DNA of 52,397 nucleotides from a virus: IMG/VR virus record IMGVR_UViG_3300046538_000057, positions 1 to 52,397 of that record. The stretch is one strand, 5' to 3'. Positions 1-51,782 of the stretch are shown piece by piece (positions within the stretch are counted from its first letter, which is position 1; every line of letters begins with the position of its first letter). The notes under the pieces are model-generated. The model was not told where the DNA came from. It did not search any database and saw nothing but the letters and a program-made list of their open reading frames with translations. A program made the position numbers and the translations under genes.

Positions 1-127
1 CGCTGTTCGTCAACCGTCTGGCTGAGCGCACGCGACTTGGCAAGCAGATCTCTGGAGCGCTTGGCGGGTATGGTCTACCGCTTCTGAAAACCCCACTTCG
101 CGACCGGATCGCATACCCGACCTGCAT
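1..127. repeat. Terminal direct repeat, left copy (circular junction)
   Basis: Identical base for base to 52271-52397. An exact 127-bp overlap at the ends is the usual trace of a circular contig from a k=127 assembly, so the real molecule is a 52,270-bp circle (or a circularly permuted phage genome). A genuine terminal repeat is possible but less likely, because the repeat lies inside an uninterrupted parA reading frame. Confidence 0.93.
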
Positions 128-224
128 CGCAGAAGGAAAGACCCCGACAAGTAGCGGCTACAGCGGCATCCGACTGGAGTCACTACTCTTTGCCAAGGCT
201 GTTACGAGAATGCTGGAGGCCTGA
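1..224 (+). CDS. parA: ParA-family partition ATPase, C-terminal part (gene crosses the junction)
   Basis: This is the C-terminal end of the ParA gene that starts at 51886; only the linear cut separates the two parts. The frame entering at base 3 continues the frame leaving at 52397 and ends at TGA 222-224. Joined across the circle the protein is about 202 residues, the size of short type Ib ParA/ParF ATPases that lack an N-terminal DNA-binding domain. The RHH gene starts two bases after the stop, as expected for a parA-parG type operon. Confidence 0.9.
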   Translation, partial: LFVNRLAERTRLGKQISGALGGYGLPLLKTPLRDRIAYPTCIAEGKTPTSSGYSGIRLESLLFAKAVTRMLEA

Positions 225-2127: not shown

Positions 2128-2990
2128 ACCGACACTCCCTTCTCGCGCTTCCCGTTAAGTCTCGCCAGCAGCTGATCCTCGCTCTCGATCTCGGCCACAA
2201 CTTCGATTTCAGCCTCAAGGCCGGATTGCTCCATGAGCGCCCGGCGTCGGCCTGCCAAGTCATTTGCCGCCGCTATCTTGATTTTCAGTTTCTCGTCGGC
2301 AGTGGCCTTCTTGAATTTCTTCATGTCGGCGCGCAGCTGATCGACCCGCTCGCGATTTTTCTCGGTCGGCTTGTAGATGTTTCCGCTGATGAGGCCCGCG
2401 AGGGCCAGCCCGTCAGCCTTGACCGGTGCAATCGACAGGTCAGCCAGGTACAGCTGAGCGCGCTCCTGGGTGATGCGCTGCATCTTCACAGCCTTTTCCA
2501 CTGCCACGGCTCGGCGTTTCGGATCGAACCCCAGCGACAGATCCCACTTCACCGGCCTGGCTTCGCAGCGGGCCTCATGAATGATTCGCTCATAGGCGCT
2601 GATGAACGCCATTCGCGCGCCAATCTTGTCGCCCGCGTCGAGAATGGGCCTAGCAGCCAACAGGGCGAGCGATATCTCATCGGTTGTCACGACGCTATCG
2701 GATTCGTCGCTTAGGGACATAGCGATGCCCCACGCCTCATCCCTGCCTGGCCGCCCGTCTGCCGCCTGGATGCGCTGGAGGATAGTGGCGAGCGTCAGTT
2801 TGCCGGTCAGCTCCCGGCGGCAGGCCTTCAGGGCTTCACCGACCATCGAAGCCGGGTAGTCGGACAGGTCTTCAGCCATCAGCTCGGCAGCAGGGGCGCT
2901 GATAGTCTGCCCGAGGGTTTCAGCCGTTGCGCAGATCGCCATGGCCAGCCGGGCAATCTGCATGTCGCCCATCTGCTCAGAGGAATTCAT
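2124..2990 (-). CDS. Replication-region protein (lambda P position), function not established
   Basis: 288 residues. It lies directly after the initiator gene with a 14-bp overlap, the position of the helicase-loader gene P in lambda. The N-terminal half (IARLAMAICATAETLGQTIS, then SMVGEALKACRRELTGKLTL) is helical and fits proteins that act with initiators. The C-terminal part from about residue 200 is strongly charged and helical. I see no Walker A motif, so it is not a DnaC-type ATPase; a helicase loader or recruiter is inferred only from position. Confidence 0.75.
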   Translation of the reverse strand: MNSSEQMGDMQIARLAMAICATAETLGQTISAPAAELMAEDLSDYPASMVGEALKACRRELTGKLTLATILQRIQAADGRPGRDEAWGIAMSLSDESDSVVTTDEISLALLAARPILDAGDKIGARMAFISAYERIIHEARCEARPVKWDLSLGFDPKRRAVAVEKAVKMQRITQERAQLYLADLSIAPVKADGLALAGLISGNIYKPTEKNRERVDQLRADMKKFKKATADEKLKIKIAAANDLAGRRRALMEQSGLEAEIEVVAEIESEDQLLARLNGKREKGVSV

Positions 2991-4266
2991 TGCGCGGCGC
3001 TCCCTGCTGACGGCGCTGAAGGATGGCGCGAGCCGCTTCCTCGCCTGCGCTCAGGTTGGCCTGGCGGTCTTCCATCTGCTTGGCGGTGCGCCCGTTCACT
3101 TGGCGGCCAGTGGTCCATTGGGTATGGAACGACTCGGCGTCGCGAACCAGACTGGCCAGGTCATGGCATTTGCGGATCAGGAAAGCGTCGTTGATGGTCA
3201 GGTAGTAGGCCGCGACGTGATGGGCGTTCTCGGCGCCGAGGCGCGCGATCAGTTGGCCGAGCTGGCCACCAGCCTTGGCATTCCACACCGGCCAGGCGCT
3301 GTAGCGCTTGCGGTAGGCGAATGCGTAGTTGGCCCAGGCCTTGAAGGTTTTGCAGGCTGGATCTTTTGGGCCTGGCATGTCATCAGGGATCTGGATGCGT
3401 GGACCGGTTTGAACCTCAACGGTAGCAACCAACGTGCCGAGGGTGGTCGGCGCAGCCGTGCCCCTCTCGGAAGTGTTCGTAGTCTCTGCAGTAGTCTCTG
3501 CAGTAATCTCTGTAATAGATTGATTACCCAAGACACTACTGTCTGTCTTGGTTAGACCGTCCAGTATGTCTACCGTAGACAGACTTGCCTGCTGTCCTTC
3601 CAGTATGTCTGCTGTAGACATACTGGGGTTTTGGTAGTCGTCGGCATCCTTCATTTCCTTGCACATGAAATGCGCCGGAACGATGTTGGATACCAAGTGA
3701 CCGCCGCCATGCGCCAGGATCTTTTTATGGGCGAAGACCAGGGCCTTTGAGTGATTTCCTGGGCCGTAGTTGATCGCCTCGCTGCAAATGCCGCAGGTCA
3801 TGCCGTGAGCCGTCAACAACTCTAGGAAGTCGACGTGCTCGGTCTTGATGGCTGGCTTGATCTTCTTAGCGGTCATCATGGAGGTTTTCGACAGGCGAGA
3901 CAGTACCGTCGCGAAGTCGCGCTTGAGATCCTCAAGGGTGACCTCGCGCAGCTCTCCAGCCAGCGCTTTCGACAGCTCGTCGAAGTCGACACGGAAAAAC
4001 AGCTTGGCGGGAATGCCGCGGCGCTTCTCGCTCATCACGCCGACAGCGCACAAGGCTTTACGCGCCCGCTCCTGCTCGGTGCGGGTCATGCCGGTTTCTT
4101 CCTCCCACTCTTCCTGGGTCTTATAGAACCAGCCGTCAGCGTTCTTTGTGCGTTTCGACCAGTACACAGCCTGGGATAGCATCAGAGCTCCGCCGATGCC
4201 TACGCCGATGCTGACGAACACGCGCTGAAATGCGATCGGACGGTCTAGCAGATCGTGCAGATTCAT
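2977..4266 (-). CDS. Phage replication initiation protein (lambda O-like architecture)
   Basis: 429 residues from ATG 4266, where an upstream in-frame extension has no ribosome-binding site. Residues 10-110 read as a winged-helix domain (SQAVYWSKRTKNADGWFY, EEWEEETGMTRTEQERARKA) typical of phage and plasmid initiators that bind iterons. A linker at about 210-290 is encoded by repetitive DNA with direct and inverted repeats (3479-3620). The C-terminal part from about 310 is helical and would contact the helicase loader. The lambda O gene is built the same way: N-terminal iteron binding, origin inside the gene, C-terminal P binding. A 34-bp inverted repeat and an 18-bp operator lie upstream. 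Confidence 0.85.
   Translation of the reverse strand: MNLHDLLDRPIAFQRVFVSIGVGIGGALMLSQAVYWSKRTKNADGWFYKTQEEWEEETGMTRTEQERARKALCAVGVMSEKRRGIPAKLFFRVDFDELSKALAGELREVTLEDLKRDFATVLSRLSKTSMMTAKKIKPAIKTEHVDFLELLTAHGMTCGICSEAINYGPGNHSKALVFAHKKILAHGGGHLVSNIVPAHFMCKEMKDADDYQNPSMSTADILEGQQASLSTVDILDGLTKTDSSVLGNQSITEITAETTAETTNTSERGTAAPTTLGTLVATVEVQTGPRIQIPDDMPGPKDPACKTFKAWANYAFAYRKRYSAWPVWNAKAGGQLGQLIARLGAENAHHVAAYYLTINDAFLIRKCHDLASLVRDAESFHTQWTTGRQVNGRTAKQMEDRQANLSAGEEAARAILQRRQQGAPRNEFL
3479..3620. other. Candidate replication origin (iterons inside the initiator gene)
   Basis: Three tandem 12-bp units stand at 3479-3490, 3491-3502 (both GTAGTCTCTGCA) and 3503-3514 (GTAATCTCTGTA). Two 22-bp near-identical repeats (20 of 22 match) stand at 3560-3581 and 3599-3620. 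Each contains a dyad, perfect in the first (TGTCTAC-C-GTAGACA), and further partial copies lie at 3532-3556. Iterons within the central coding part of an initiator gene are the lambda ori arrangement. Confidence 0.65.
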
Positions 4267-4321
4267 GGCGCGACCTCCAGCGCAGCGACTGCCGCCTCGC
4301 ACTCGAGCGCGCAAATAATCC

Positions 4322-4371: not shown

Positions 4372-4459
4372 TTGCTCACAGCATTTGACACGTCCATAAT
4401 GACCTTTCTCGTAGTGAATGTTGCACCGCCCCGGCCTGATCCGCCGGGGCATTTTTTTT
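4372..4459 (+). ncRNA. Possible short antisense RNA to the initiator-gene leader
   Basis: TTGCTC (4372-4377) and CATAAT (4395-4400) are spaced 17 bases on the plus strand, and a strong GC hairpin with a T8 run ends the unit at 4459. This would give an RNA of about 50 nt. No plus-strand gene is present here, and the RNA would be antisense to the leader of the minus-strand initiator mRNA, as in plasmid copy-number control. Purely a sequence inference. Confidence 0.35.
4428..4459 (+). terminator. Rho-independent terminator, plus strand
   Basis: The stem GCCCCGGC (4428-4435) pairs with GCCGGGGC (4443-4450) around seven bases and is followed by ATTTTTTTT. The T run is only on the plus strand, although no plus-strand gene lies upstream, so it must end a short plus-strand transcript. 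Confidence 0.8.
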
Positions 4460-4468
4460 GTGCGCTCC

Positions 4469-4486
4469 GGTCCCTCTGGAGAGACT
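4469..4486. promoter_or_regulatory. 18-bp dispersed operator, initiator leader
   Basis: GGTCCCT-CTGG-AGAGACT, identical in all 18 bases to the site at 51783. It lies between the KorA-like gene and the initiator gene, about 200 bp upstream of the initiator start. Confidence 0.75.
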
Positions 4487-4524
4487 AGGCTGCACGGTAT
4501 ACCGCCTTGAAACGAAAATCTAGG

Positions 4525-4728
4525 TTACCGAGCGACGGCCTTGGCCAATTCCAGGGCAGACTTAAAGCGCTTCACAGACTTGTAAATCGTCTGGATCGTG
4601 CATCCAAGCTCTTCGGCGGCCTCTTTGACTGGCTTGCCATCAACCAGGACTATTTTCGCTCCCTGGTCGCTCACGCCGCCGGTTGCGTTTATCAGCACTG
4701 CAAGCGTGTCGAATTGTTCGTTTGTCAT
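4525..4728 (-). CDS. TrfB/KorA-like DNA-binding regulator
   Basis: 67 residues. The stretch KIVLVDGKPVKEAAEELG (about 26-43), continuing CTIQTIYKSVKRF, matches the helix-turn-helix core of the TrfB family, whose best-known member is KorA of plasmid RK2, a global repressor of replication, partition and maintenance genes. The ribosome-binding site is AGGGGTGAACC. Its promoter (TTGACG-N17-TAGTGT at 4752-4780) holds the palindrome GACTAGTC in the spacer, compatible with autoregulation. It sits next to the initiator gene, so control of replication is the likely job. Family assignment is from recognised motif order; the target sites are inferred. Confidence 0.75.
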   Translation of the reverse strand: MTNEQFDTLAVLINATGGVSDQGAKIVLVDGKPVKEAAEELGCTIQTIYKSVKRFKSALELAKAVAR

Positions 4729-5275: not shown

Positions 5276-5659
5276 TTAACAACTACTGTATGGAATAGCA
5301 GTATCAGGTGACGTGGAAGAGACCGCTGAAGAAGTGGTGCTAGGTGACGTGGAAGGGACTGTTATTTTGAGAAGTCCGACGCGACTCTCTAACCGTCTTC
5401 CTGTGTTCCGGTAGGCCGGGCGGCCTTTCCGATGGGATGCAGCCTTGAAATTAACGTGAATCACGTTTTTGCCTGCGCTGGACGCCGGATCAGGCAGTTC
5501 CTGATCCGGGTCGCTGTCGATGTCATCAAAGGCTTGTACTGCCTTGGCGGTCATGAGTTCTGCAAGCTGCATTCCGGTCATGTTTTTTGAAGCCGCCATT
5601 GCTTCCCACCGGGCCAGGTTCTCAATTCCGATTACGCTCTCGTAATATTCCTTAGTCAC
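5276..5659 (-). CDS. Hypothetical protein with Ser/Thr-rich tail
   Basis: 127 residues from GTG 5659, chosen because AAAGGAG stands at the right distance upstream. Residues 1-50 are helical (LARWEAMAASKNMTGMQLAEL). The C-terminal 27 residues are a low-complexity Ser/Thr/Pro tail in which STSP occurs twice. That tail is encoded by two copies of an operator-like sequence (5307-5324, 5343-5360), so the reading frame appears to have run into regulatory repeats. No family recognised. Confidence 0.6.
   Translation of the reverse strand: MTKEYYESVIGIENLARWEAMAASKNMTGMQLAELMTAKAVQAFDDIDSDPDQELPDPASSAGKNVIHVNFKAASHRKGRPAYRNTGRRLESRVGLLKITVPSTSPSTTSSAVSSTSPDTAIPYSSC
5307..5324. promoter_or_regulatory. 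Variant operator GGTGACG-TGGA-AGAGACC
   Basis: The same 7-4-7 layout as the dispersed operator but with GGTGACG as left arm. Together with three following bases it is an exact 21-bp inverted copy of 7319-7339. It lies in the 3' end of the gene at 5276-5659. Confidence 0.55.
5343..5360. promoter_or_regulatory. Variant operator GGTGACG-TGGA-AGGGACT
   Basis: Second copy, starting exactly 36 bp from the first, which would place bound proteins on about the same face of the helix. The right arm is a perfect AGGGACT. Confidence 0.55.
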
Positions 5660-5775: not shown

Positions 5776-5979
5776 TTATGCGTGCTTCTTTTGCATGAAG
5801 TCAGGCAACTCGCCGTGCTCTTCCCAGTACGCCAGGGTGTCCTCGGCTAAAGCCCGAAGGAACACAGAGTGCAACAGCTCGTTGTCATGCGCCATCTTGA
5901 CAAACCTTTTGTGCTTCTCATATCCAAGACGCATCTTTGTTTGCTTTTCGTGCATCAGCTCTTCTGGTACGTGTGGCAT
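5776..5979 (-). CDS. Small hypothetical protein downstream of cro
   Basis: 67 residues with ribosome-binding site AAAGGGG. The sequence is basic then acidic and helical (MRLGYEKHKRFVKMAHDN, LLHSVFLRALAEDTLAYW). The spacing of basic and hydrophobic residues could fit a ribbon-helix-helix or small regulatory protein, but I cannot assign a family. It occupies the position of cII in a lambda-like order, although it does not look like CII. Confidence 0.65.
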   Translation of the reverse strand: MPHVPEELMHEKQTKMRLGYEKHKRFVKMAHDNELLHSVFLRALAEDTLAYWEEHGELPDFMQKKHA

Positions 5980-6003: not shown

Positions 6004-6207
6004 TCAGTCTGGTGCTGCTTTCTTCTTTGCTTTCGGGAAGTCGCTGAGCTCGATCCCTTTTGCCTTTCCGTCCGGTAGCACGGTGATGAGAATGTCTCGC
6101 CCTGCCTCTACCGCCTTCGTTATTCCCTGGTGGCTAACACCAAGCATTTTTCCCACCTTGGCCGGGCCAAGATCTGCAACCAACTGCTTTAGCGGAACAC
6201 CTTGCAT
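6004..6207 (-). CDS. cro: Cro-like repressor
   Basis: 67 residues from ATG 6207 (ribosome-binding site GAGGGAG). The sequence PLKQLVADLGPAKVGKMLGV, then SHQGITKAVEAGRDILI, aligns by eye with lambda Cro: helix-turn-helix at about residues 14-37, the KAxxAGR motif at its end, then a beta strand and a basic Lys-rich tail. Its promoter has an 18-bp operator exactly between -35 and -10. In lambdoid phages Cro shuts down early transcription; here it is the best candidate to bind some of the dispersed operators. The CI partner gene expected on the other strand is absent. Confidence 0.85.
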   Translation of the reverse strand: MQGVPLKQLVADLGPAKVGKMLGVSHQGITKAVEAGRDILITVLPDGKAKGIELSDFPKAKKKAAPD

Positions 6208-6277
6208 AAACGACTCCCTCGCCGGTTGATACCTAATGGTAACCAACAGTTGCGGAGCCTTCAACGGTGTTACGCAA

Positions 6278-6305
6278 ATTTTAGTCCCTTCGAGGGGTCT
6301 TGCAA
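6278..6305 (-). promoter_or_regulatory. pR-like promoter of cro
   Basis: On the minus strand, -35 TTGCAA (6300-6305), 16-base spacer, -10 TAAAAT (6278-6283). The operator at 6283-6300 fills the spacer. The leader to the cro ATG is about 65 bases. Confidence 0.75.
6283..6300. promoter_or_regulatory. 18-bp dispersed operator in the cro promoter
   Basis: AGTCCCT-TCGA-GGGGTCT, two arm mismatches to the consensus. It lies between the -35 and -10 hexamers of the cro promoter, so binding would block RNA polymerase. Confidence 0.75.
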
Positions 6306-6331
6306 CTTAAAAATTATTTCATAGAAAGGAC

Positions 6332-6360
6332 TTTACAGGCTCGCAACCTTGAGTTACCTT
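6332..6360 (+). promoter_or_regulatory. pL-like promoter for the plus-strand early operon
   Basis: TTTACA (6332-6337), 17-base spacer, TACCTT (6355-6360). The late promoter candidate at 44366-44394 uses the same -10. An operator follows at about +9 to +26. Confidence 0.55.
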
Positions 6361-6375
6361 TTAGTCCATCGAGAC

Positions 6376-6393
6376 GGTCCCTTCCGAGAGACC
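6376..6393. promoter_or_regulatory. 18-bp dispersed operator downstream of the pL-like promoter
   Basis: GGTCCCT-TCCG-AGAGACC. It stands just downstream of the predicted start of the plus-strand early transcript and 134 bp before the HNH gene. Confidence 0.75.
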
Positions 6394-6526
6394 AGAAACG
6401 AACACGACTGGTGAAGCCGCCAGATAGCCCGGGATCAGCGAAATGATCTCCCAGCCCCGGAAAGCGGGACCGACTGGAACAAGTTCTTTTTGACGGAATA
6501 GATGAACAGCCAAATCTGGAGAACGC

Positions 6527-7003
6527 ATGAAATCGATCACCGCAGAAGATCTGGCCAAGGTTGTGAGTTATGACCAGAAAACAGGCGACTTCACAAGGGT
6601 ATCAACCGGAAATGTTGTTGGTGAGCCTGATCGCAAGGGTTACCTGATTTTCGTCGTTACAGGGATCGCCGTAAGGGCTCACAGGGCCGCGTGGCTCTAC
6701 ATGACTGGAAAGTGGCCGGAAGGTGAGATTGACCATATCAATGGAGTCACATCGGACAATCGATTCTCCAACCTTCGTGAATGCAGCCACCAACAGAACA
6801 ATCACAACCAGCCGATTAGAAAAAACAACACGTCAGGTGTAAAGGGCGTTTATTGGAATTCAGCAGCAAAGAAATGGGATGCGCGGGTCTGCCTGAATTA
6901 CAAAATTCACAATGGCGGCCTTTTTGACAGTCTTGAAGAAGCATCGGCAGCCGTAAGGTCTCTTCGAGAGAGGCTGCATGGCGAATTCGCAAACCATGGG
7001 TAA
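6527..7003 (+). CDS. HNH endonuclease with C-terminal AP2-like DNA-binding domain
   Basis: 158 residues. The HNH motif is EIDHINGVTSDNRFSNLREC at about residues 67-86, followed by Asn/Gln/His residues. The C-terminal part (SGVKGVYWNSAAKKWDARV) is an AP2-like domain as in many phage homing-type endonucleases. The ribosome-binding site is GGAGA. It sits where the CI repressor gene of a lambdoid phage would be and is followed by its own hairpin at 7007-7039, so it may be an insertion. It probably nicks or cuts DNA; the target is unknown. Confidence 0.85.
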   Translation: MKSITAEDLAKVVSYDQKTGDFTRVSTGNVVGEPDRKGYLIFVVTGIAVRAHRAAWLYMTGKWPEGEIDHINGVTSDNRFSNLRECSHQQNNHNQPIRKNNTSGVKGVYWNSAAKKWDARVCLNYKIHNGGLFDSLEEASAAVRSLRERLHGEFANHG

Positions 7004-14957: not shown

Positions 14958-16124
14958 ATGGCTGCGAAGCGCGGGGTGCGTGCGGCATCGAAAAGCAGTA
15001 TCGAGATCTCGTTCATGGTCGACGGCAAGCAGTGCCGGGAGCGCCTGCCGCTGGAGCCTACGCCGGCCAATTTGAAGCGGGCGCAGCAGCAAAAGGCGTC
15101 GATTGACCTGGCGATTCACCGGGGCGAGTTTGACTATGCCGAGGCATTCCCCAGGTCGAAGCGGGCGGCGTCGGCTGTCGGCCAGTCCGGACAGGTGCCG
15201 CTGGGCCAGTACCTGGACGAATGGCTTGAGCGCAAGGCCGGCATCCTGAAGGCGTCCACGCTGGACGGTTACCGCAAGATCGTTGCGGGAGTTCTGGTCC
15301 CGGCGCTGGGCAGCCTGGCGCTGGCATCGGTCACGCGCAAAGAGGTCAAGGCGGCCATGGCCAAGATGATTGCGACGAACAAGCGGCTGGCCAACGTGCA
15401 ATCGTGCCTGCGCTCGGCCCTGAGCGATGCCGTAGACGACGAGCTGATCGAATCGAACCCACTGGCCGGCTGGACGTACTCAGTGAAGGGCAAGCCGCGC
15501 ACCGAGGACGAGATCGACCCATTCAGCCCGGACGAGCAGCGGGCAATTCTGGCAGCGGCGACCGGGCAGTATCGGAACCTGCTGCAGTTCGCCTTCTGGA
15601 CTGGGCTGAGGACGAGCGAGCTGGTCGCGCTGGAGTGGGGCGACATTGACTGGCATCGAGGGGAAGTGAGGGTGTCGCGGGGGCTGACGGCGGCAGCCAG
15701 CGAGGCAGAGACGCCGAAGACGGCGGCCGGGGTGCGTAGTGTGCGCCTGCTGCCCATGTCGTTCGAGGCGCTGAAGGCCCAGCGAGAGCACACCTATATA
15801 GAAGGGAAGGCCGTTTTCCACGACCCGAGGCATAACCGGGCATTCAACGGTGACCAGGAGATCCGCAAGTCATTCTGGGCGCCGACCATCCGCCGGGCAG
15901 GCGTGCGCTACCGGAACCCGTACCAGACCCGGCACACCTACGCATCCATGATGCTGAGCGCGGGCGAGCATCCTATGTGGGTGGCCAAGCAGATGGGGCA
16001 CACGTCGTTCCTGATGATCAGCCGGGTTTATGGCCGATACATCCCGAACGAGTCGGACACGTCCGGCGATCTGGCGGCGGCGATGTTTGGTTCGGATAGC
16101 TCCGAGCGCAGACAGGCCGGCTAA
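14958..16124 (+). CDS. int: Tyrosine recombinase (phage integrase)
   Basis: 388 residues. Residues 1-60 look like an arm-type DNA-binding domain, about 75-165 the SAM-like core-binding domain (LGQYLDEWLERKAGILKAST), and about 185-375 the catalytic domain. GLRTSELVALEWGDI holds the first catalytic Arg; NPYQTRHTYASMML is the second Arg box (with Tyr where His is usual); QMGHTS and the following SRVYGRYI give the later His and the nucleophile Tyr. It would integrate the phage at attB or resolve dimers of the circular form. I could not identify attP. Its presence beside a partition system is unusual. Confidence 0.9.
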   Translation: MAAKRGVRAASKSSIEISFMVDGKQCRERLPLEPTPANLKRAQQQKASIDLAIHRGEFDYAEAFPRSKRAASAVGQSGQVPLGQYLDEWLERKAGILKASTLDGYRKIVAGVLVPALGSLALASVTRKEVKAAMAKMIATNKRLANVQSCLRSALSDAVDDELIESNPLAGWTYSVKGKPRTEDEIDPFSPDEQRAILAAATGQYRNLLQFAFWTGLRTSELVALEWGDIDWHRGEVRVSRGLTAAASEAETPKTAAGVRSVRLLPMSFEALKAQREHTYIEGKAVFHDPRHNRAFNGDQEIRKSFWAPTIRRAGVRYRNPYQTRHTYASMMLSAGEHPMWVAKQMGHTSFLMISRVYGRYIPNESDTSGDLAAAMFGSDSSERRQAG

Positions 16125-16162
16125 CCGGCAGCAAGTAATCCTAACAATGTTTAATTCTGGTA

Positions 16163-16191
16163 TTGCTCAGTCCCTGTGAAGGGACTATGAT
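16163..16191 (+). promoter_or_regulatory. Promoter of the rha-like gene
   Basis: -35 TTGCTC (16163-16168), 17-base spacer, -10 TATGAT (16186-16191). The spacer is the operator 16169-16186. The gene starts 35 bases further on. Confidence 0.8.
16169..16186. promoter_or_regulatory. 18-bp dispersed operator, perfect palindrome
   Basis: AGTCCCT-GTGA-AGGGACT, the best copy in the genome, with seven perfect base pairs in each arm. It fills the space between the -35 and -10 of the rha-like promoter. Confidence 0.85.
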
Positions 16192-16225
16192 TAATCCAGG
16201 GGTTATACATTGATAAGGTGCAAAC

Positions 16226-16726
16226 ATGGAAATCTCACTGGCTTCACGCGCAGGTTCAGTTGTTGTTCGTTCTACAGAGGTGGCCGAGCGTTTCGGCAAG
16301 CGGCATGACCACGTTCTGCGCGACATTGACTCCCTGATTCGCGAGGCTGAATCTCACTCCCCAAAATTGGGGGGTGAGATTTTCACAGAGACAGAGTTCG
16401 TCAACGGGCGAAACAGAACGTACCGTGAATTTCTGATGAATCGCGACGGCTTCGCACTGCTAGCCATGGGGTTCACGGGGAAAGAGTCGACAGGATGGAA
16501 GCTGAAATACATCGACGCATTCAACGCAATGGAAAGCGCACTCGCCTCACAAGGCCGGGAGTTAGCGCAGGCGATGTCGGACGCCATATCCGCCTTTGAA
16601 GAGGATCGGGAAAAGGCTAGTCGGCATGGCAAAGCCCTATCCGCTTGGAAAAAGACCAAGGACCGGCATATCGAAGCGATCATCGGCGCCAACAAAAAGA
16701 CACAGATGCTTCTCGACCTCAAATAG
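16226..16726 (+). CDS. Rha-family phage regulatory protein
   Basis: 166 residues. The N-terminal 100 residues carry the Rha signature: VVVRSTEVAERFGKRHDHVL, RDIDSLI, the FTETEFVNGRNRTYREFLM block, then MNRDGFALLAMGFTGK and KLKYIDAFNAME. Rha proteins are lambdoid regulators that interfere with infection of some host backgrounds. The C-terminal 60 residues are charged and helical. It is controlled by a promoter with a perfect dispersed operator, so it should be repressed when the repressor is present. Confidence 0.9.
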   Translation: MEISLASRAGSVVVRSTEVAERFGKRHDHVLRDIDSLIREAESHSPKLGGEIFTETEFVNGRNRTYREFLMNRDGFALLAMGFTGKESTGWKLKYIDAFNAMESALASQGRELAQAMSDAISAFEEDREKASRHGKALSAWKKTKDRHIEAIIGANKKTQMLLDLK

Positions 16727-18990: not shown

Positions 18991-19064
18991 GCGAAACAAT
19001 AGCCGCGCGACAAAAACCGGCTGCACAGTTTGAAACTCGGACAATTTTTAGGGATGAAGCATGA
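18987..19064 (+). CDS. Micro-ORF 2 of the acyltransferase unit
   Basis: 25 residues (starts MSETIAARQKPAA). The start overlaps micro-ORF 1 and the stop overlaps the acyltransferase ATG, so three frames form a translation relay. It may be a regulatory leader or a functional micropeptide. Confidence 0.45.
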   Translation: MSETIAARQKPAAQFETRTIFRDEA

Positions 19065-20128
19065 GCAGCCAACGATTGCCAGCGCTTGACGTCACGCGAG
19101 GGATAGCCGCCCTTGCCGTAGTATTGTTCCACTATACCTGCATGAATGAAGCCGCTCGGACAGACATGCCGACCATCATGCAATTTACAACCTACGGTTA
19201 TTTCGGTGTCCACCTGTTTTTCTTGATCAGCGGGTTTGTGATCTTTATGACCCTGGAGCGGACGGCGGGGGCGCTTGATTTCTTCTTGGCTCGGGCGTCG
19301 AGGCTTTACCCGGCCTTTCTCCTGAGCATTGTCCTCACCCTCGCCTGCCTCTACGTTCTACCAGGGATGATGGAATTCAGCGTGCGCGATGTCCTTTTGA
19401 ACCTAACCATGTTCCCCGACATTCTCGGCGCCAAGAAGGTGAACCCGGCTTACTGGACGCTGAGCATCGAGATTGTTTTCTATGCCATCGTCTTTCTGGC
19501 CATACTTTTACGCGGAAAGTCCGGCATATTGCCCGTAGTTTTTGGCTGGTTCGCCTTATCCGCTCTAAATACGGTTGTCGGACTTGGAATAGTCGAGAAG
19601 TTGCTGATACTGAAATGGTCCCCACTGTTTGCAGGTGGAGCCGCGCTTTATCTCGCGACTCGCTCAACGCATTGGAAGCGCGCCGTTTACCTGGCGCTGT
19701 TCGTCATGACGATGCCCGTCGCCTATCACTACGCCATCGAAGCGCTAGTCGAGCAGAACGCCAAGTTCAGCTTCTGGAAAACTGACGACGCCGTAGTGGC
19801 CTTGGTGCTGGCGGCGATTTATGCGCTGATGGCCTTCATAGCATTTCGTCCCAATGCCATGGGCTGGCTACCGCCGAAATTTGTCGAGTTGTGCGGTGGT
19901 GGCAGCTATATCATTTATTTGATCCACGAACGCGCCGGGAGCTTGATGGTGACGTTGCTTTACCCGTCACTCGAGGCAATGGCTGTAGTCTTCGTTATCG
20001 CTATCATGTCTTCCGCTGCGGCACTTATATACGTGTACTTTGACAAGCCAGCACAGAAGAAGCTTCGCGCACTTCGCGGCCGTGCAAAGTCGGCCCCGAG
20101 CGCATCCGCTTTGAACGCCTCGAACTGA
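19061..20128 (+). CDS. Membrane acyltransferase (acyltransferase_3), likely O-antigen acetylase
   Basis: 355 residues with about ten hydrophobic segments. The opening motif LDVTRGIAALAVVLFHY carries the conserved Arg and catalytic-type His of acyltransferase family 3, and FFLARASRLYPAFLLSIVLT the second Arg block. Members move acetyl groups from acetyl-CoA to sugars in the inner membrane. Temperate phages such as D3 and SF6 use them to modify O-antigen and change the receptor for later phages. Here the gene lies at the end of the plus-strand operon, converging on the lysis gene, a typical place for a lysogenic-conversion cargo gene. Confidence 0.88.
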   Translation: MSSQRLPALDVTRGIAALAVVLFHYTCMNEAARTDMPTIMQFTTYGYFGVHLFFLISGFVIFMTLERTAGALDFFLARASRLYPAFLLSIVLTLACLYVLPGMMEFSVRDVLLNLTMFPDILGAKKVNPAYWTLSIEIVFYAIVFLAILLRGKSGILPVVFGWFALSALNTVVGLGIVEKLLILKWSPLFAGGAALYLATRSTHWKRAVYLALFVMTMPVAYHYAIEALVEQNAKFSFWKTDDAVVALVLAAIYALMAFIAFRPNAMGWLPPKFVELCGGGSYIIYLIHERAGSLMVTLLYPSLEAMAVVFVIAIMSSAAALIYVYFDKPAQKKLRALRGRAKSAPSASALNASN

Positions 20129-23378: not shown

Positions 23379-26300
23379 TTATGGCGCCGTGGCGCTGTCG
23401 TAGGTGTAAACGCGGGCGTCGTAGGGCATGCCCTTGAGCGCGACGTTGCCGTTGGATGGGTCGGAGCGCGTGACGAGGACCGGGTAGGCCCACTTCGACG
23501 CTGGTCCGATCAACAACTGAGGCAGCGACATGTTTCCGCTCATGCTGGTGTCGGGCACAAAGTCGAGATCGGCGACCTGGACGTGGTAATCGTCGATTTG
23601 CGTCCCTTGGTAGGGACCCGAGAGAGAGCCATCAGCACGACTGATACCGACTTTGTAGATCTCGGGCACTGACCAATCGATCAGCTCTGACGACTCCAAC
23701 AGGAAGCCACCAGCAACCGCCGTAACGCTGACAAGCTCGGCGCTCTGGCATTGCCCAGGGGTATCGCTGGCCACCGCGCAGAAACTCAGGTAACCCGAGT
23801 TCATGCCGGCCAGTTCTGTTTCCCAGGTGTAGGTGTCCTGCCTGAACAGTTGGTGCCCACGACGGCGCATGCCGAACTGATAGGCGCGATCCCGATCACC
23901 AACACCGGGCAGCTTTACCTTCTCGACCTTGTTGCCGGCATCACCCGGCCAGCGGCACGGCACCGTCTCCCAGGCCCAGGTGATATTCGAGTAATACTCG
24001 ACATCCACGCCGTCAATGTCGTTGAGCGAGGTCAGCGGCCCGGCGATGCTGAGCTTCTTGGTCATGTTTTGGGGGCTGTAGGTCTGCGTCTTTGGGCCAT
24101 AAGTGATATCAAATATCGCCCGCGGCTCATCACGCACTAGACTGACCAGGCCATTTTTTATGGTTAACTCGGAAAAGCCGCAGGCCAGCGCATCGTTGAG
24201 GCGATCCTTGGCGGTGCTGCTGTCATCGATGGTCTCGTCGTAATACTGGCCGGCGGCGTTGAATACCAGGTCCAGCCGGTCCCATTCGGCCAGGTCGATG
24301 TCGCCATCTTCATATCCCAGCGACTTCAGCACATTGAGGCACCACGGCACGATGCCGCGGGTAGCTACCGGCGCTTGCCAAGCCCCGCCCGAGCGAACCG
24401 GAAGAACGCGGGTCGCCTCGCCGTTGACTTGGCTTTCCGATTGCGCAGACAGGCGATCACCGCCGCGAATCTTGACTGACATGACTGTCATACCCGGGTA
24501 GCTGGTCGGTCGCGTCTGACGCAGGCCGCGCAGGCCTTCCCAGGCTGGGCTATCGATCCACTCGCCACTGTTGGCGCCGCCACCCTTGGGCAGGCGCTTG
24601 ATCTGGCTTTCCGGGCGCATCGGGTAGGGCAGCTCGATCCGAAAAGTGAAGCCTTGCGCATCCCGCGAGTGACCGGTGACGGTTTGCGTAGTTACGGTCC
24701 ACGCCCCGGCGACATTTGCGTCCCGATACTCGAACTGATGAGACGAGTAGATAGCGTATTCGTCGCCTTTTCGGCCCATACCGATCAGGCCATTGGCGTA
24801 GGTCACGGTGTACTCGATGTGCGTCACCAGCTCTCCCTCTGGCGCACAGTAGAACGGACCGCGATAGCCACCCTCCAGGCTGGATGGATCAAGGCTGACC
24901 AGGCCGTTTACGGTTTCCATCGCATTGAACCCGATCCATCCGGCATCCACTGAGCCCGACGCAGTGAGCCGGTCAACCGTCATGATCGAGGTGCCAAACG
25001 CCGTGATCCGGTAGCGCAGCCCGCGCGGCCCGATGGTGGCCAGACCAGAACCCAGGGCCAAGCCCACCACTGGCGATCCGCCGTCATAGTCCAGGGTCAT
25101 TTGTGCCGGAACTTCAGGCGTGCCGGCACTGGCTGGCGTGCCAGTGGTATTGGTCGGGCTGCTGCCGAGGATGTCGGAACCACCGGTGGCAACCATGCTC
25201 TCGCCGCCAAAGGTGCCGAACTGCGTGATCAGCAGGCGGCCAGATGAAGCGCTGGCCAGGAATGGCGCCGAACCCTTGGCCGTGTTGAATGCCGATACCA
25301 GGCCGGCGAGGTCAGTCGTTGCTGCTGTCAGGTTGACGGCATACGGCGTGCTGCCCAGCGTCACGGTGACCGACAGCGGTGTCACGTCGAAGTCGTAGCG
25401 CGACGGAACACTCGAACCCAAGATTGTCGAAGCGGTGCCGGAGGTCGGCGGCACGGCGGCCGCATACGGCGTAAAGGTGTTGACGACGTAGTTACCGGCG
25501 TTCGCCCCAGCGACTTCAATCAGCATGCCGGGCACAGGGTCGAGCATTTCCAGCGGCCCCTGCACGATGTCGCGCCCTGCCCCGCCATCGACCACGGTGT
25601 ACGTATACGGGGCGAGTGCGCGGATAACCAGGCCTGTCTCCCAGTCTGCCGGGAAGCTGCCCGCGCCGGCCGGGATTGCAATCGTGTCTCCATTGAACTG
25701 ATAGGCCGAGGCCGAGGCGGACGGGGTGAGGTTGGTCGATACGGTCAATTCCAGTCCGGAAGTACCACTGGAACTGGCGCCCACCTCTTTGGCGTTAAAC
25801 CACAGCATCGAGGCGGTATCGGCAGATACGTCAGCGCCTGGCGCGTAGATCGCCACCTGAGCATCGGCACCAAGGGAGATCAGCGGGGTTTCGCCCACTT
25901 TGAGCCTGCTAACGTCAAGTTCGCCCTCGGAGATATACAGCAACATCTCCACCCACTTTTCTCGCGGCGCGGCAAACCAGGTGCGCGGCTCAGCCAGGTA
26001 TGACGGGTACACCTTCTGATGCCCGGCGATGTTGCGAATCAGCTCGCCAAGTTTGACTTTGTTGCCCTTGGCGCTAGCTTCGTCGAGTGGGTTGCCCTGA
26101 CCTAGCCCTGAATTGGACGGCATACCGGGCATTTTCGGCGCCAGCATCTTGCTGACAGCTATGGCGCCAACTATCAGAAGTATGCCCCAGCCAACTGCAG
26201 CCAGGCCCTTCGGTTCGTGCCAAATCTGCACATGATCGGAGGGCTTGAACTTGACCTTGTGCCACAGTCGCGCTTCGATCATTTCGCCGTTGATGGCGAT

Positions 26301-26438
26301 GCTGACCGGCTGAGCCTCGCCGCGCTTGTACAGTGGAGTTTGCTCAAGCAGCCACTCTTCCAGCGTCATGCGCCGGTCAGTCGTGAACGTGGCCAGCGGC
26401 TGGGAGTCAGCCATTTTATTGGGGAAAAACTCGATCAT
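23379..26438 (-). CDS. Tail tip host-specificity protein (TipJ/lambda J-like)
   Basis: 1019 residues from ATG 26438, which overlaps the stop of the NlpC/P60 gene; a longer in-frame extension overlaps that gene and was rejected. The N-terminus has MTLEEWLLEQTPLYKRGE and a hydrophobic stretch near 90-110 (GILLIVGAIAVSKMLAP). The central part is beta-rich with fibronectin-like character, and a long baseplate-hub-like region follows. The order NlpC/P60 then this gene is the K-J order of lambda. It forms the tail tip and contacts the cell. A perfect core operator lies in its coding sequence at 23601-23618. Confidence 0.88.
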   Translation of the reverse strand: MIEFFPNKMADSQPLATFTTDRRMTLEEWLLEQTPLYKRGEAQPVSIAINGEMIEARLWHKVKFKPSDHVQIWHEPKGLAAVGWGILLIVGAIAVSKMLAPKMPGMPSNSGLGQGNPLDEASAKGNKVKLGELIRNIAGHQKVYPSYLAEPRTWFAAPREKWVEMLLYISEGELDVSRLKVGETPLISLGADAQVAIYAPGADVSADTASMLWFNAKEVGASSSGTSGLELTVSTNLTPSASASAYQFNGDTIAIPAGAGSFPADWETGLVIRALAPYTYTVVDGGAGRDIVQGPLEMLDPVPGMLIEVAGANAGNYVVNTFTPYAAAVPPTSGTASTILGSSVPSRYDFDVTPLSVTVTLGSTPYAVNLTAATTDLAGLVSAFNTAKGSAPFLASASSGRLLITQFGTFGGESMVATGGSDILGSSPTNTTGTPASAGTPEVPAQMTLDYDGGSPVVGLALGSGLATIGPRGLRYRITAFGTSIMTVDRLTASGSVDAGWIGFNAMETVNGLVSLDPSSLEGGYRGPFYCAPEGELVTHIEYTVTYANGLIGMGRKGDEYAIYSSHQFEYRDANVAGAWTVTTQTVTGHSRDAQGFTFRIELPYPMRPESQIKRLPKGGGANSGEWIDSPAWEGLRGLRQTRPTSYPGMTVMSVKIRGGDRLSAQSESQVNGEATRVLPVRSGGAWQAPVATRGIVPWCLNVLKSLGYEDGDIDLAEWDRLDLVFNAAGQYYDETIDDSSTAKDRLNDALACGFSELTIKNGLVSLVRDEPRAIFDITYGPKTQTYSPQNMTKKLSIAGPLTSLNDIDGVDVEYYSNITWAWETVPCRWPGDAGNKVEKVKLPGVGDRDRAYQFGMRRRGHQLFRQDTYTWETELAGMNSGYLSFCAVASDTPGQCQSAELVSVTAVAGGFLLESSELIDWSVPEIYKVGISRADGSLSGPYQGTQIDDYHVQVADLDFVPDTSMSGNMSLPQLLIGPASKWAYPVLVTRSDPSNGNVALKGMPYDARVYTYDSATAP
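23601..23618. promoter_or_regulatory. 18-bp dispersed operator inside the TipJ gene
   Basis: CGTCCCT-TGGT-AGGGACC; all 12 core bases match. It is well inside a coding sequence and not at a promoter, so it would act as a transcription roadblock, or it occurs by chance. Confidence 0.5.
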
Positions 26439-26818
26439 CGGAGATACACCACTCGTTGATAGCGCAACTCGAAGTCGCGCGCGGTGCGAATGCGGGGGCC
26501 GCCCGGATTGGTGTCGAGCACCTTTAACTGTCCTTCCAGATCCACGACGACGCCAACGTGACACAGGTATTCGCCGGTAAATGCCAAGGCGATAGCTGCT
26601 GGCTCTGGCTGGCACTCTTCCATGCCGGCGCTGACGGCTCGATAAGCCTTTGTGTTCTCGCGCAGCCTGGACCGACCGACACCGCCCAGCGACGGCATCA
26701 ACGGCAGGCCGAACACTTCGTGCCGCACGGCAATGACCAAGCCGTAACAGTCATAAGCCAGAGGCCCGCGTGCGCCGTCCCGGTAAGGTGCCGACAGGTA
26801 ATCCGCAATGTCTTTCAT
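26435..26818 (-). CDS. NlpC/P60-family tail assembly protein (lambda K-like)
   Basis: 127 residues from ATG 26818. YDCYGLVIAV holds the catalytic-type Cys24, and LCHVGVVVD the His87 of the NlpC/P60 fold. In lambda-like tails this domain belongs to gpK, which is needed for tail tip assembly and may process peptidoglycan or another tail protein. Both ends overlap neighbours by four bases. Confidence 0.85.
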   Translation of the reverse strand: MKDIADYLSAPYRDGARGPLAYDCYGLVIAVRHEVFGLPLMPSLGGVGRSRLRENTKAYRAVSAGMEECQPEPAAIALAFTGEYLCHVGVVVDLEGQLKVLDTNPGGPRIRTARDFELRYQRVVYLR

Positions 26819-27300
26819 ATGAAGATCAGCCCAGGCGCTTTGTCGGCATTCAGCTTGTTGCGCGGGAATGCCGTTCCAAGAAGGTCGTACTGCCCGCACG
26901 TCAGCGCGGCCACGTCGTTGGCGTACTGACGGTTAAGCACCGTCAGCCGATAGTGCTCTGCCGGGTAGGTCAGATTGCTTTCGAGGTATCGCCGTTTTGT
27001 CAGGGTGATGCGCGCCGATGCTGCGCGCGCCAGTTCGATTGCCGCCTGGACCTTGCCATCGGTGTTGTCCAAGGCGATGTTCAGGTTCTGGTATCCGCTG
27101 TTGTCCTGCACGGGCAGGGCCTCTTCCACCGCCATCGCCAAAAAGACGAGCGTGCGCCCGTCCTCCGTGCCGCAGACGCGATCCTCATAGCCGGAGCAGA
27201 TGAGGATCGGTGCCGCCCACGCGGAACAGGTCGCCTCGATCGTATCGACGAACAAGTCGTTGCCGACTGAGGCGTAGGCGATGTTGATGGGGTTGCTCAT
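26815..27300 (-). CDS. DUF1833-family tail protein
   Basis: 161 residues. The N-terminus (NIAYASVGNDLFVDTIEATC) and the block LNIALDNTDGKVQAAIELAR match the DUF1833 phage family, which lies between tape measure and NlpC/P60 genes and probably plays the part of lambda L or M at the tail tip. An 18-bp operator stands 14 bp upstream of its start codon. Confidence 0.8.
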   Translation of the reverse strand: MSNPINIAYASVGNDLFVDTIEATCSAWAAPILICSGYEDRVCGTEDGRTLVFLAMAVEEALPVQDNSGYQNLNIALDNTDGKVQAAIELARAASARITLTKRRYLESNLTYPAEHYRLTVLNRQYANDVAALTCGQYDLLGTAFPRNKLNADKAPGLIFI

Positions 27301-27313: not shown

Positions 27314-27331
27314 AGTCCCTAGCAAGAGACT
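27314..27331. promoter_or_regulatory. 18-bp dispersed operator between tape measure and tail tip genes
   Basis: AGTCCCT-AGCA-AGAGACT in the 44-bp gap between the tape measure stop and the DUF1833 start. A weak TTAACA lies upstream on the minus strand without a good -10. Confidence 0.65.
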
Positions 27332-27344: not shown

Positions 27345-30300
27345 TTAGACACCCTGTGACTGCAAGCCGTACTTCTCTTGATTCACCTGGTGCATCTCTT
27401 TCTCGCCGCGAATGTTGGACACGTAGATGTCGACGACGTCCTGCTCGGTGAGTTGACGACGACTGGTCTGCCCCGCCCGACTCGCATCCTCGATCAGGTT
27501 GAAGACCATCGGCCGCTCCGGCGCCGGAACACCATTGCTGGCCGCCGTCGACGAGCTGCTACCGCTGGACGCTGAGCGACCAGCAGACACGTTGCCATTG
27601 CGCAGCGCCTCCACCGATGCCACGCCGCCATACTTGCGAATGTCGGATTGCGACCAGACGATCTCGCCCTTGTGGACGGTGCCCGCTGGATCGTTCACGC
27701 CGCCAGCGCCGGTATAGCCACCACCGGAGAAACCGACGCCGGCAATGTTGGCGACGTTGGCCGCAGTGGCCACACCGACCACGCCCGCGGCGATAAAGTT
27801 GAACGGTGGCGGGAATGCTGCGAGCGCTTTCTGGATGGCCAGGTAGCCGTCAATCGTGGCCTGAGCCATGGCGGCGGCCTTACCGATCGCCGCCAGCTTG
27901 CCGTGACCGGACTGACTCAGCGTGGCCATGATCCCGAAGAAGCTCGACGACTGGGTGATGATCGCCGTGTTTTTGGCCTGCTCGATCTTGGCCCGGTTCT
28001 CGGCAGCCTGGGTGTTGATGTTGGCTACGCGCTCGGCATAGGTCTCTTCGTTGATCGCCTTGAGGTCGAGGTAGGCTTTTTGCTTTTCAAGCTCGGTCGC
28101 TCTCCATTGATCCAGCCTGCCCGTCTCTTCATTCAGTCGAGTGATCTCGCTGCCAGCCCCGCCGATGGACGGGTCAAGCCCGGTAGCGGTCGGCGCCTTG
28201 GTGACCCCCTCAATGGTCCCGGGCTTCTGCGCGGCGTTGAGATTGATGTCGCGGATCTTGATCAGCGTTTCAAGTCGCTTTGCGGCCTCGGTGTTGCCCT
28301 GGCGCTCGTACTCAGCCATTTGCGCAGCATCGTCCAGGGATGACTTCAGGCTGTTGGCTTCGCGGAGTTGCCCGGTCAGCGTGAGCAGCTGAACCTGATC
28401 CTTCTGCGCCTGCTGAATGCCTTTGCTGATCTCAGCCTCGCGCTCAAGGCCGGCATTCTTCTTCAGTTGTGCGGTGATCAGATCCTGGCTGGCCAGCAAG
28501 GACTTCTGATCGGCGGTGAGCGTCTTCTTGCCCTTGATATCGGCGAGTTGCTGCTCCCACTTGATCAGCGCCTGCGCCTGCGCCCCCACCTTCTCGGTGG
28601 CGATGCCTTGACCATTGATCGAGGCAAGTTGTTGGGTGAGCACGGCATTGGTCTGCCGTGCCACGCCAAGCATCTTCAGGCCGGCGTCTTCGGTGACGGC
28701 CTTGGTCGCCGCTGCCTTGGGTTCTTTGAACTTGTCGCGCACAGCCTTTTCGGACGCATCGGCGTCAGCCTGGGTGATCGTGTAGCCGGCCGCCCGCGCC
28801 GCATTGATACGCTGCTGATCTTCGAGTAGGGCCTTGTTCAGCTTCTGCTCGCGAGTTCCGCCGGCCTCGATGCCCTTCTGGAAGTCCTCGTAAGCCTTCT
28901 GCCCGTCGCGCTGAATCCTGGCCTTTTCACCTTCGGCCTTGCCCTGATCGGCGAGCAGCAACTTCTGCTTTTCAAGGAGGTTGAGGCGCGTCTGCAGGAA
29001 CCGCGACGAATCACTGCCTTCGCCGAGCGTATCGGGGAACATTTTTGCCGCGAAGCTGGTCTTGCGATCCTCCAGCAGCTGCTTGGTATTGGCGATCTGC
29101 TCGTCGAGCGACTGCTGACGACCGACGCCGAGCATGGCATCCCAGCCACTTTTGGCGGCGCCAGTGATCGCATTCCAGGCTGATTCGATGGTGCCAAGGC
29201 TCTCCTTGATGGTCTTGGTGCGAGCTTCCAGTGCCTTCGCGTAGGCATCCTGGGCGATTGTCGCCGCCGCTTCCTTTTCGCCCATTTCTTGAGCTGCGCG
29301 CACCTGCTCGTAAACCGAAGCGGTGAGGAAGTTGTATTTGTCGTTGAGCGCGGCCACTGCCTTTACTGGATCTTCCGCCAGCGAGGCGAATTCGGCGACA
29401 GTGGCCGACACCGCTTTGCCGGTGACCTGCTCGAAGCCGATGGCGGCCGTGGCGATCTGTTCGAAGCTGGAACTGGCGATCTTGCCGTTCGATGCCAGCA
29501 AGGCCAGCGTCTCGGCCGCTTTCCCGGTCGTGCCGACGCTCGCGCTGATGGTGGTTGCCATGCCGGCCAGAGCCAGCGCCGACGTTCCGGAGGCGTTGCC
29601 GGTGGTGATGATCGCCTGCCTGAAGGCGTCCGCCTCTTGAGAGCCCTGATAGTAGGCCAGGCCCAACGTACCGACTGCCGCGGCCGCCACGGTGAACGGG
29701 TTGACCAGGCCGAGGACGTAGCCGCCCAGTGCCTTTGCTGCCGGACCGGCGCCGCCGAACATGTCTTTTAGCTGGCCGCCCTGCTGCAGGAATACCGTCA
29801 GCGGGTTCTGGCCGCCCTGGAGCGATACCGCGATGTCAGTGAATTGCGCCGGCACACCGCGCAGGGCTGCCGCCGTCTGCTTGGCGGTGTTTCCGGTGCG
29901 GGTCAGTGAGTCGTCGAATCTGGTCAGACCCTTGCGGGTTGCGTTGATCTTCGCCTGGTATTCATCATAGGTGGCAGTGTCGAGCTTTCCGGCCTTGCGA
30001 TGCCTAGCAAGCTCCTGCTCTTGCCTGTCAAGCTCTGCCAGCTTGCGAGATACGGGATCAATGCGCCCAAGCAGATCTGCCAGTTCTTTCGACTGCTCGT
30101 CGATGGCGGCGGTGTTGCCGCGCAAGGACTTGGCGGCGCGATCCTGCGAGCCAGCCAGAGCGTCGGACTCGGCCCGAAGACGGCCGGCGAGCGCTGCAAG
30201 ACTGCCGGCCCTGTCGCCGGCAGTATCAAGGGCGGATGCGGCCGACAGGGTGTTGGCTGACAGCGATTTAACGTAGTCGCTTGCCTGCAATGAGGTTTTT

Positions 30301-30761
30301 GCCATCGATAGCAGGCGAGCGTCGGCCTGAGCTGCGCTTTCCCCTACTTTGATGACTGAAGTGGCGACGGTATCACTCTGGGCTTTAAAGCCGCTGATGG
30401 ACGATGTGGCGCTAACGAATGCGCTTGATGCCCTGGAAAGCGAGACTCCGACAGACTCAAGGGCGCGAGACGTGGCGTCCTGTTTGGCGTTGAGCGCCTG
30501 CAGCTCTTTGACGATCAGCTGAGTATCGCGACTGATGCCGCCCACGGCTTCGGACCAGGCCTTGCCGGTGCGCCCTGCGGAAGTCTCGGCGCCCTTACCG
30601 GAGCCTGTCAGCTTGTCGAGGCCATCGCTGGCCTTATCCATGGCTGGCTTGATGCGCAGGCCGGCATTCTCCAGCTCCCCTAGCGCATCGCGAACATCTT
30701 CCGCCTTTTTCTCGGCGTCTCGGCTGTCCAGCTCAATGACGAGGCGGGATGTTTGGACCAT
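27345..30761 (-). CDS. Tape measure protein
   Basis: 1138 residues. It begins with the usual tape-measure N-terminus (RLVIELDSRDAEKKAEDVRD) and has long coiled coils rich in Ala, Lys and Gln. A lambda-type central region (QFTDIAVSLQGGQNPLTVFL, QQGGQLKDMFGGAGPAAKAL) is followed by hydrophobic segments near 345-375 and 1000-1045. It sets tail length and takes part in DNA passage. By the rough ratio of 1.5 angstrom per residue the tail should be about 170 nm. A terminator and ribosome-binding site module stands immediately upstream. Confidence 0.93.
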   Translation of the reverse strand: MVQTSRLVIELDSRDAEKKAEDVRDALGELENAGLRIKPAMDKASDGLDKLTGSGKGAETSAGRTGKAWSEAVGGISRDTQLIVKELQALNAKQDATSRALESVGVSLSRASSAFVSATSSISGFKAQSDTVATSVIKVGESAAQADARLLSMAKTSLQASDYVKSLSANTLSAASALDTAGDRAGSLAALAGRLRAESDALAGSQDRAAKSLRGNTAAIDEQSKELADLLGRIDPVSRKLAELDRQEQELARHRKAGKLDTATYDEYQAKINATRKGLTRFDDSLTRTGNTAKQTAAALRGVPAQFTDIAVSLQGGQNPLTVFLQQGGQLKDMFGGAGPAAKALGGYVLGLVNPFTVAAAAVGTLGLAYYQGSQEADAFRQAIITTGNASGTSALALAGMATTISASVGTTGKAAETLALLASNGKIASSSFEQIATAAIGFEQVTGKAVSATVAEFASLAEDPVKAVAALNDKYNFLTASVYEQVRAAQEMGEKEAAATIAQDAYAKALEARTKTIKESLGTIESAWNAITGAAKSGWDAMLGVGRQQSLDEQIANTKQLLEDRKTSFAAKMFPDTLGEGSDSSRFLQTRLNLLEKQKLLLADQGKAEGEKARIQRDGQKAYEDFQKGIEAGGTREQKLNKALLEDQQRINAARAAGYTITQADADASEKAVRDKFKEPKAAATKAVTEDAGLKMLGVARQTNAVLTQQLASINGQGIATEKVGAQAQALIKWEQQLADIKGKKTLTADQKSLLASQDLITAQLKKNAGLEREAEISKGIQQAQKDQVQLLTLTGQLREANSLKSSLDDAAQMAEYERQGNTEAAKRLETLIKIRDINLNAAQKPGTIEGVTKAPTATGLDPSIGGAGSEITRLNEETGRLDQWRATELEKQKAYLDLKAINEETYAERVANINTQAAENRAKIEQAKNTAIITQSSSFFGIMATLSQSGHGKLAAIGKAAAMAQATIDGYLAIQKALAAFPPPFNFIAAGVVGVATAANVANIAGVGFSGGGYTGAGGVNDPAGTVHKGEIVWSQSDIRKYGGVASVEALRNGNVSAGRSASSGSSSSTAASNGVPAPERPMVFNLIEDASRAGQTSRRQLTEQDVVDIYVSNIRGEKEMHQVNQEKYGLQSQGV

Positions 30762-51758: not shown

Positions 51759-51782
51759 CTTGATCCCCTCAGGTCCCTTTCT

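Follow-up and report, generated by a model that had tools for sequence, protein, structure and literature searches.

How does a lambdoid phage govern itself when it has a Cro protein facing divergent promoters, but no CI repressor? The question is raised by IMG/VR record IMGVR_UViG_3300046538_000057, all 52,397 bp of which were studied and are referred to here as the window. A sequence-only reading had pointed to an HNH-AP2 endonuclease gene in the place expected for CI, and had offered three explanations: repression by a small protein that is not cleaved in the SOS response, loss of CI in a virulent derivative, or plasmid-like maintenance. It missed a partition operon, because parF spans the contig ends and so appears split, and also a second, genome-wide operator family. 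With these included, we favour, at a probability of roughly 0.55, the reading that the window comprises the complete genome of a temperate lambdoid phage whose clade lost CI and turned phage-plasmid, with Cro and a ribbon-helix-helix (RHH) repressor in CI's stead. The sequences themselves provide the loss of CI in the clade, a ParF-ParG operon with its boxes, two operator families, the co-occurrence of the RHH gene with one of these families, and purifying selection acting on Cro, integrase and ParF.

The record and its relatives

The circle is real: positions 52271-52397 are a copy of positions 1-127, a direct terminal repeat of 127 bp, and parF is an intact open reading frame only across the contig join. 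Genes for portal, terminase and tape measure proteins are present alongside those for ParF and ParG, which is the gene content of a phage-plasmid. Four large relatives are circular contigs, as is the window; this is compatible with an extrachromosomal prophage and also fits virion DNA. The contigs are metagenomic and some IMG/VR loci are one phage sampled repeatedly, so the counts below are of contigs rather than of independent lineages.

A literature search covering titles and abstracts, with most subscription journals outside its scope, returned no description of the clade. Scanning GTDB representative genomes (one genome per species) for the clade's Cro yielded no clade prophage and a single weak, unrelated match, and the clade's RHH protein had no match in the curated PLSDB plasmid set. 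Both results weigh against the favoured reading; either collection may miss clade members. The RHH protein of a non-clade relative was likewise without a match in a collection of named phages.

Cro and the divergent promoters

The control region contains the following features.

6004-6207, minus strand: cro type 1, 67 aa (PF09048, 41.6 bits, E=1.3e-10)
6238-6254, minus strand: operator CGCAACTGTTGGTTACC, presumed Cro site, inside the 17-bp spacer of promoter PR1 (TTGAAG-17-TACCAT)
6278-6305, minus strand: PR2, a tandem promoter further upstream (TTGCAA-16-TAAAAT); its spacer contains a degenerate RHH-type operator, of which one half-site is intact
6331-6359, plus strand: PL (TTTACA-17-TACCTT), whose spacer holds operator CGCAACCTTGAGTTACC at 6342-6358

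A Cro gene and divergent operators of the lambdoid kind are thus in place, as had been claimed. The window contains just two exact copies of CGCAAC-N5-GTTACC, one between the -35 and -10 elements of PR1 and the other between those of PL; about 0.16 copies would be expected at up to one mismatch. Cro is 82-100% identical across 20 IMG/VR loci and is under purifying selection (dN/dS 0-0.18), and the first 170-195 bp upstream of the gene are similar in all 20 Cro-bearing relatives. The PR1 operator is conserved in 8 genomes, and the distance between the PR1 and PL operators, 104 bp in the window, is the same in 19 of the 20 relatives. The geometry of PR2, about 98 bp upstream of the cro start, is kept in all 29 clade loci.

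Eight more clade loci, found via the RHH gene, encode a second type of Cro and have GTACC-type operators at the same places; the Cro type swaps together with the PR1 and PL operators, and the RHH gene and its sites stay unchanged. This joint change makes Cro the likely binder of the PR1 and PL operators.

Loss of CI and the HNH slot

The other mark of a lambdoid switch, a CI-type repressor beside cro, is absent. The earlier statement that the complete circle encodes no CI or S24-type repressor was borne out: neither the window nor 18 relatives matched Peptidase_S24 (PF00717) at E<=1, while control genomes did, and searching the window with a profile made from the CI proteins of four related phages yielded nothing. 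No CI was found in any of about 29 clade contigs. It is present in none of 30 clade entries (some redundant), whereas 61 of 78 relatives sharing the replication module have it, several of the remaining 17 being truncated loci; the eight loci with type-2 Cro also lack it. Named relatives that retain a repressor beside cro are Medea1, MR13, F116, phiAH14a and PseuP_222.

6527-7003, plus strand: HNH-AP2 endonuclease gene (HNH_3 E=2.6e-17; AP2 match sub-threshold; phrog_99 E=2.9e-65)

The sequence-only reading was right about where this gene lies, but not that it took over from CI. Its occupation of the expected CI place is what would suggest that it displaced CI in the window phage, and we give that idea next to no credence, as all 20 Cro-bearing relatives with which it was compared have neither an HNH gene there nor CI. 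Beyond the similar 170-195 bp upstream of cro, the interval up to the 7113 gene, at which the left arm resumes in relatives with a long enough stretch, differs from phage to phage. Judged by these comparisons, the HNH-AP2 gene is recent cargo in a variable slot downstream of PL. Since 20 relatives lack both genes and distant relatives have CI, the sequences place the loss of CI at the base of the clade and the arrival of the HNH gene later. An rrn-type boxA-like element, GCTCTTTA, lies directly 3' of PL in relatives L002-L021 and is missing in the window, where the HNH slot starts. A second HNH_3 gene (48180-48692, minus strand) adjoins NinG, and the O-like replication protein (2977-4314, minus strand) has an apparent HNH-like insertion at about residues 150-222, as judged by PHROG HNH matches.

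The partition operon

The operon that crosses the contig join, and its presumed sites, are as follows.

51886-52270, plus strand: parF, ParA-type ATPase of 202 aa, first part (CbiA E=1.7e-15; phrog_164 ParA-like E=3e-33)
1-224, plus strand: parF, second part, read across the contig join
226-444, plus strand: parG, RHH centromere-binding protein, 72 aa (PF09274 38.7 bits, cut-off 21.4)
51853-51887: ParG-type boxes, GTGAGTCAAATACTCAC and a second copy, presumed operator/centromere, immediately 5' of parF
434-803: ParG-type boxes (434-466 and 751-803), 3' of parG
50446-50496: ParG-type boxes, third cluster

ParF has the deviant Walker A motif (KGGVGKS) of type Ib ATPases, and a small RHH protein, ParG, is encoded directly 3' of it, as in type Ib ParFG systems. 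The operon is found in every large relative; ParG occurs in all 7 clade genomes and, like ParF, in none of the 84 non-clade relatives. All 24 loci recovered in a ParF scan have ParG and none has CI, and in 22 of them the set of boxes is present. These boxes, palindromic GTGAGT/ACTCAC sequences, are clustered at corresponding places in the relatives. The dN/dS of parF, 0.14-0.23, indicates purifying selection, and its nearest plasmid homologues, about 60% identical, come from Pseudomonas syringae plasmids. It is on ParF-ParG that support for plasmid-like maintenance, one of the explanations originally offered, now rests.

A genome-wide operator family

An 18-bp palindrome, RGTCYCT-N4-AGRGACY, recurs at early and late promoters, with 7-9 sites per clade genome and 0.14 per 50 kb in non-clade relatives. 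Each clade genome has 5-6 perfect palindromes, whereas 1.40 Mb of sequence from non-clade relatives has 1, with about 0 expected. The sites in the window are these.

6376-6393: operator GGTCCCTTCCGAGAGACC, just 3' of PL
4469-4486: between the KorA-like gene and O, beside the antisense terminator-like element at 4428-4450
51783-51800: directly beside a -10 element (TATAGT, leftward), 5' of the 51021-51839 gene
16169-16186: in the int-rha gap, within the spacer of TTGCTC-17-TATGAT
23601-23618: one mismatch, within tail gene 23379-26615
27314-27331: intergenic, with late genes 27345-30761 and 26815-27300 on either side
44299-44316: late region
47106-47123: one mismatch, upstream of the T5 A1-like gene

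The majority overlap or adjoin elements that resemble promoters. Across genomes the sites recur in corresponding places: following PL, in the gap that separates the KorA-like gene from O, 5' of the 51021-51839 operon, within the recombination operon, between late genes and ahead of the A1-like gene. With up to one mismatch allowed, the site that follows PL is found 168-169 bp from cro in 7 of 8 genomes, and that beside O is kept in 8 of 8. Chance can be set aside: a genome is expected to contain about 0 sites, and the figure for the reversed pattern is 0-1. RNA hairpins or terminators were also considered; the half-sites vary independently (C opposite A), which makes a protein-bound DNA site the likelier explanation.

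Several other elements lie near these sites. The terminator-like element at 4428-4450 (plus strand), in the gap between the KorA-like gene and O, is conserved in 8 genomes and resembles the terminator of lambda OOP RNA. The palindrome GGTATACC at 4496-4503, beside the O operator, occurs once per genome in 8 genomes and is a possible KorA-like site. The gene downstream of the last operator (45068-46615, minus strand) encodes a T5 A1-like DNA transfer protein (phrog_1745 E=4e-139) in 7 of 7 large clade genomes, an unexpected protein in a 52-kb temperate siphophage.

Candidate repressors

Three genes near cro come into question as regulators.

5776-5979, minus strand: Arc-like RHH protein, 67 aa, proposed genome-wide repressor, next to cro
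5276-5659, minus strand: RHH partner gene, following the RHH gene, in 7 of 7 large relatives
4525-4728, minus strand: KorA/TrfB-like HTH protein, in the position of lambda cII

The homologue of the first in relative L004 matches the Arc-like repressor family phrog_3431 (E=2.5e-5). An AF2 monomer model of the window protein (pLDDT 84) has nearly all its top Foldseek matches among RHH proteins (Arc, PutA and AmrZ), with weak E-values of 0.76 at best. Residues 13, 15 and 17 align with Q9, N11 and R13 of Arc, whose residues 9, 11 and 13 are known DNA contacts; among 21 homologues Q13 and K15 are invariant and R17 is nearly so. The model and the alignment agree in predicting an RHH fold with DNA-contact residues on its strand.

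The gene and the palindrome travel together. Among non-clade relatives the few loci with the palindrome are largely the few with an RHH homologue, and an RHH scan yielded 77 loci. In 75 of them a palindrome follows within 500 bp downstream, compared with 1 site among 75 control loci. CI is encoded at no fewer than 66 of the 77 loci, ParF at none. Whole genomes with the RHH gene have 1-4 palindromes outside the clade against 7-9 within it. With the RHH gene and 1-4 operators already present in CI-bearing relatives, expansion of the RHH regulon appears to have accompanied the loss of CI.

The idea of a small repressor that the SOS response does not cleave is therefore supported, with a different protein in the role: the RHH product is the candidate binder of the palindromes, and a better one than the HTH fusion at 800-1381 that had been proposed, for which the seven clade genomes gave one weak match. 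The XRE protein at 50818-51024 was also set aside as repressor; it is mostly highly conserved, but its putative recognition helix differs in genome G004, where the operators are unchanged.

The partner open reading frame adjoins the RHH gene at every locus inspected, including nine outside the clade, and its product could be a binder or co-factor at the palindromes. Direct repeats of AGGTGACGTGGAAGRGAC at 5306-5323 and 5342-5359, at the 3' end of this gene, lie in DNA conserved in 9 loci and look like decayed RHH operators. The clade profile of the KorA-like protein matches solved TrfB chains (E ~6e-4), and its Pfam KORA score of 23.5 bits is below the 26.7 cut-off; the gene is present in 7 of 7 clade genomes and 0 of 84 non-clade relatives.

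A model of control and its alternatives

In the model that we favour, Cro would repress PR1 and PL, as in lambda-dv, and O/P replication would be kept low. The RHH protein, made from the same PR transcript as Cro, would bind the RGTCYCT palindromes and shut O, the left arm, the leftward operon at 51839 and the late promoters. By weakly autoregulating PR2 through its half-intact site it would ensure that a little Cro and RHH protein is always made. We infer an extrachromosomal prophage, circular and of low copy number, that would be partitioned by ParF-ParG, with lysogeny held by Cro and the RHH protein. Counting against the part given to the RHH protein is that its gene, like cro, sits in the lytic PR operon, an unusual place for a lysogeny repressor. 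RHH repressors are not expected to be RecA-cleavable, so induction would need another route; no good conserved LexA box that would point to SOS control via LexA was found.

The phage could also be a phage-plasmid in which the palindrome is bound by another protein, the partner, the KorA-like protein or the XRE protein being the true prophage repressor. KorA-type proteins are global repressors of plasmids, the KorA-like and partner genes are universal in the clade and missing from 84 non-clade loci, and at each RHH locus inspected the partner comes after the RHH gene. Three of those 84 loci, however, carry palindrome sites and no match to the KorA-like protein, and the putative recognition helices of the KorA-like and XRE proteins vary between genomes whose operator is constant, as are the contact residues of the RHH protein. 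We consider this unlikely. Somewhat less probable still is an integrating phage in which ParF-ParG merely stabilises a transient circle and lysogeny is held by Cro or an unrecognised repressor. The gene that prompts it is the following.

14958-16124, plus strand: tyrosine integrase, 388 aa (PF00589 and Arm-DNA-bind_2)

Of 7 large relatives, 6 encode an intact integrase, the contig of the seventh breaking off within the gene. The protein is 84-99% identical in 6 large relatives, under purifying selection (dN/dS 0.09-0.20) and 71% identical to that of Pseudomonas phages MR13 and MR15. Integration may thus still take place, which counts against a purely plasmid existence, and the Rha and O-acetyltransferase genes suggest a temperate life. 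Against this stand the GTDB representative genomes, which lack the clade's Cro, the four large relatives that are circular contigs, and partition genes under purifying selection, hard to reconcile with an integrated prophage. The same genes weaken the claim of a virulent derivative, in which the RHH sites would be mere early-to-late timing switches. CI is found nowhere in the clade, the RHH gene belongs to the lytic PR operon and its product would already act locally in CI-bearing relatives; but the genes for integration and maintenance are neither lost nor decayed, integrase and ParF-ParG being conserved and selected, the genome-wide operator set is maintained, and a strictly lytic phage has no use for a partition system. 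We regard virulence as highly improbable.

Some accessory genes bear mention. The slot after int (16124-16226; genomes G002-G012) holds alternative regulators, namely Rha, a YdaS-like HTH or an RHH-like protein, and in one relative an HNH gene. An O-antigen acetylase-like gene (19061-20128, plus strand) and an alpha/beta hydrolase gene (49065-49904, minus strand), which few or no relatives have, are possible lysogenic conversion cargo.

Relation to known systems

Lambda-dv (pR-cro-cII-O-P) shares with the window phage O/P-type replication, autoregulation by Cro and the lack of CI. It is a laboratory fragment with neither virion genes nor partition, whereas the window is a whole phage with ParF-ParG and a second operator family. 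The phage-plasmids P1, N15 and SSU5 combine a phage genome with plasmid partition, and the C1 operators of P1 are scattered over its genome; partition within a phage genome and many scattered operators liken the window phage to the P1 type. It differs from this group in its lambdoid gene order, in having ParF-ParG rather than ParA-ParB and an Arc-like RHH protein rather than C1, and in a phage-type integrase where the group has Cre or telomerase. Arc and Mnt of P22 are RHH repressors of a lambdoid phage; P22 retains the CI-like C2 repressor and Arc and Mnt act locally at immI, whereas the window phage is without CI.

Cluster A mycobacteriophages such as L5 and RedRock have one repressor with genome-wide sites, and some use partition instead of integration (PMC6550527, PMC7157519), int and parABS replacing each other (PMC7157519). 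Their stoperators are asymmetric, oriented, mostly off promoters and bound by an unrelated repressor. The sites in the window are not of this kind: they are palindromes, the majority next to promoter-like elements, and both int and par, mutually exclusive in Cluster A, are present. ParFG-parH of TP228 pairs a ParA-type ATPase with the RHH protein ParG and has boxes upstream of parF (PMC7308502), but TP228 is a multiresistance plasmid, whereas the window cassette lies inside a phage lytic operon, on the opposite strand, with box clusters on both sides. A master repressor other than CI is known from the SP-beta prophage, namely MrpR (PMC10516654). MrpR is not an RHH protein and SP-beta is integrated, whereas the window candidate is an RHH protein of a proposed phage-plasmid.

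Implications

CI is the gene taken to define lambdoid immunity, and here is a clade with Cro, no CI anywhere and an added partition system. The course of events that we propose, with about even odds, is that an Arc-like RHH protein whose sites in CI-bearing relatives are few, local and early acquired genome-wide operators, that CI was lost and ParF-ParG gained, and that an integrase-bearing phage so became a phage-plasmid controlled by Cro and the RHH protein. The intermediate relatives, which have CI as well as the RHH protein with few local sites, make this path of replacement directly testable. Calling a phage virulent for want of CI can be wrong. If the reading is true, the clade would be a natural, wild counterpart of lambda-dv and would show how immunity systems get replaced.
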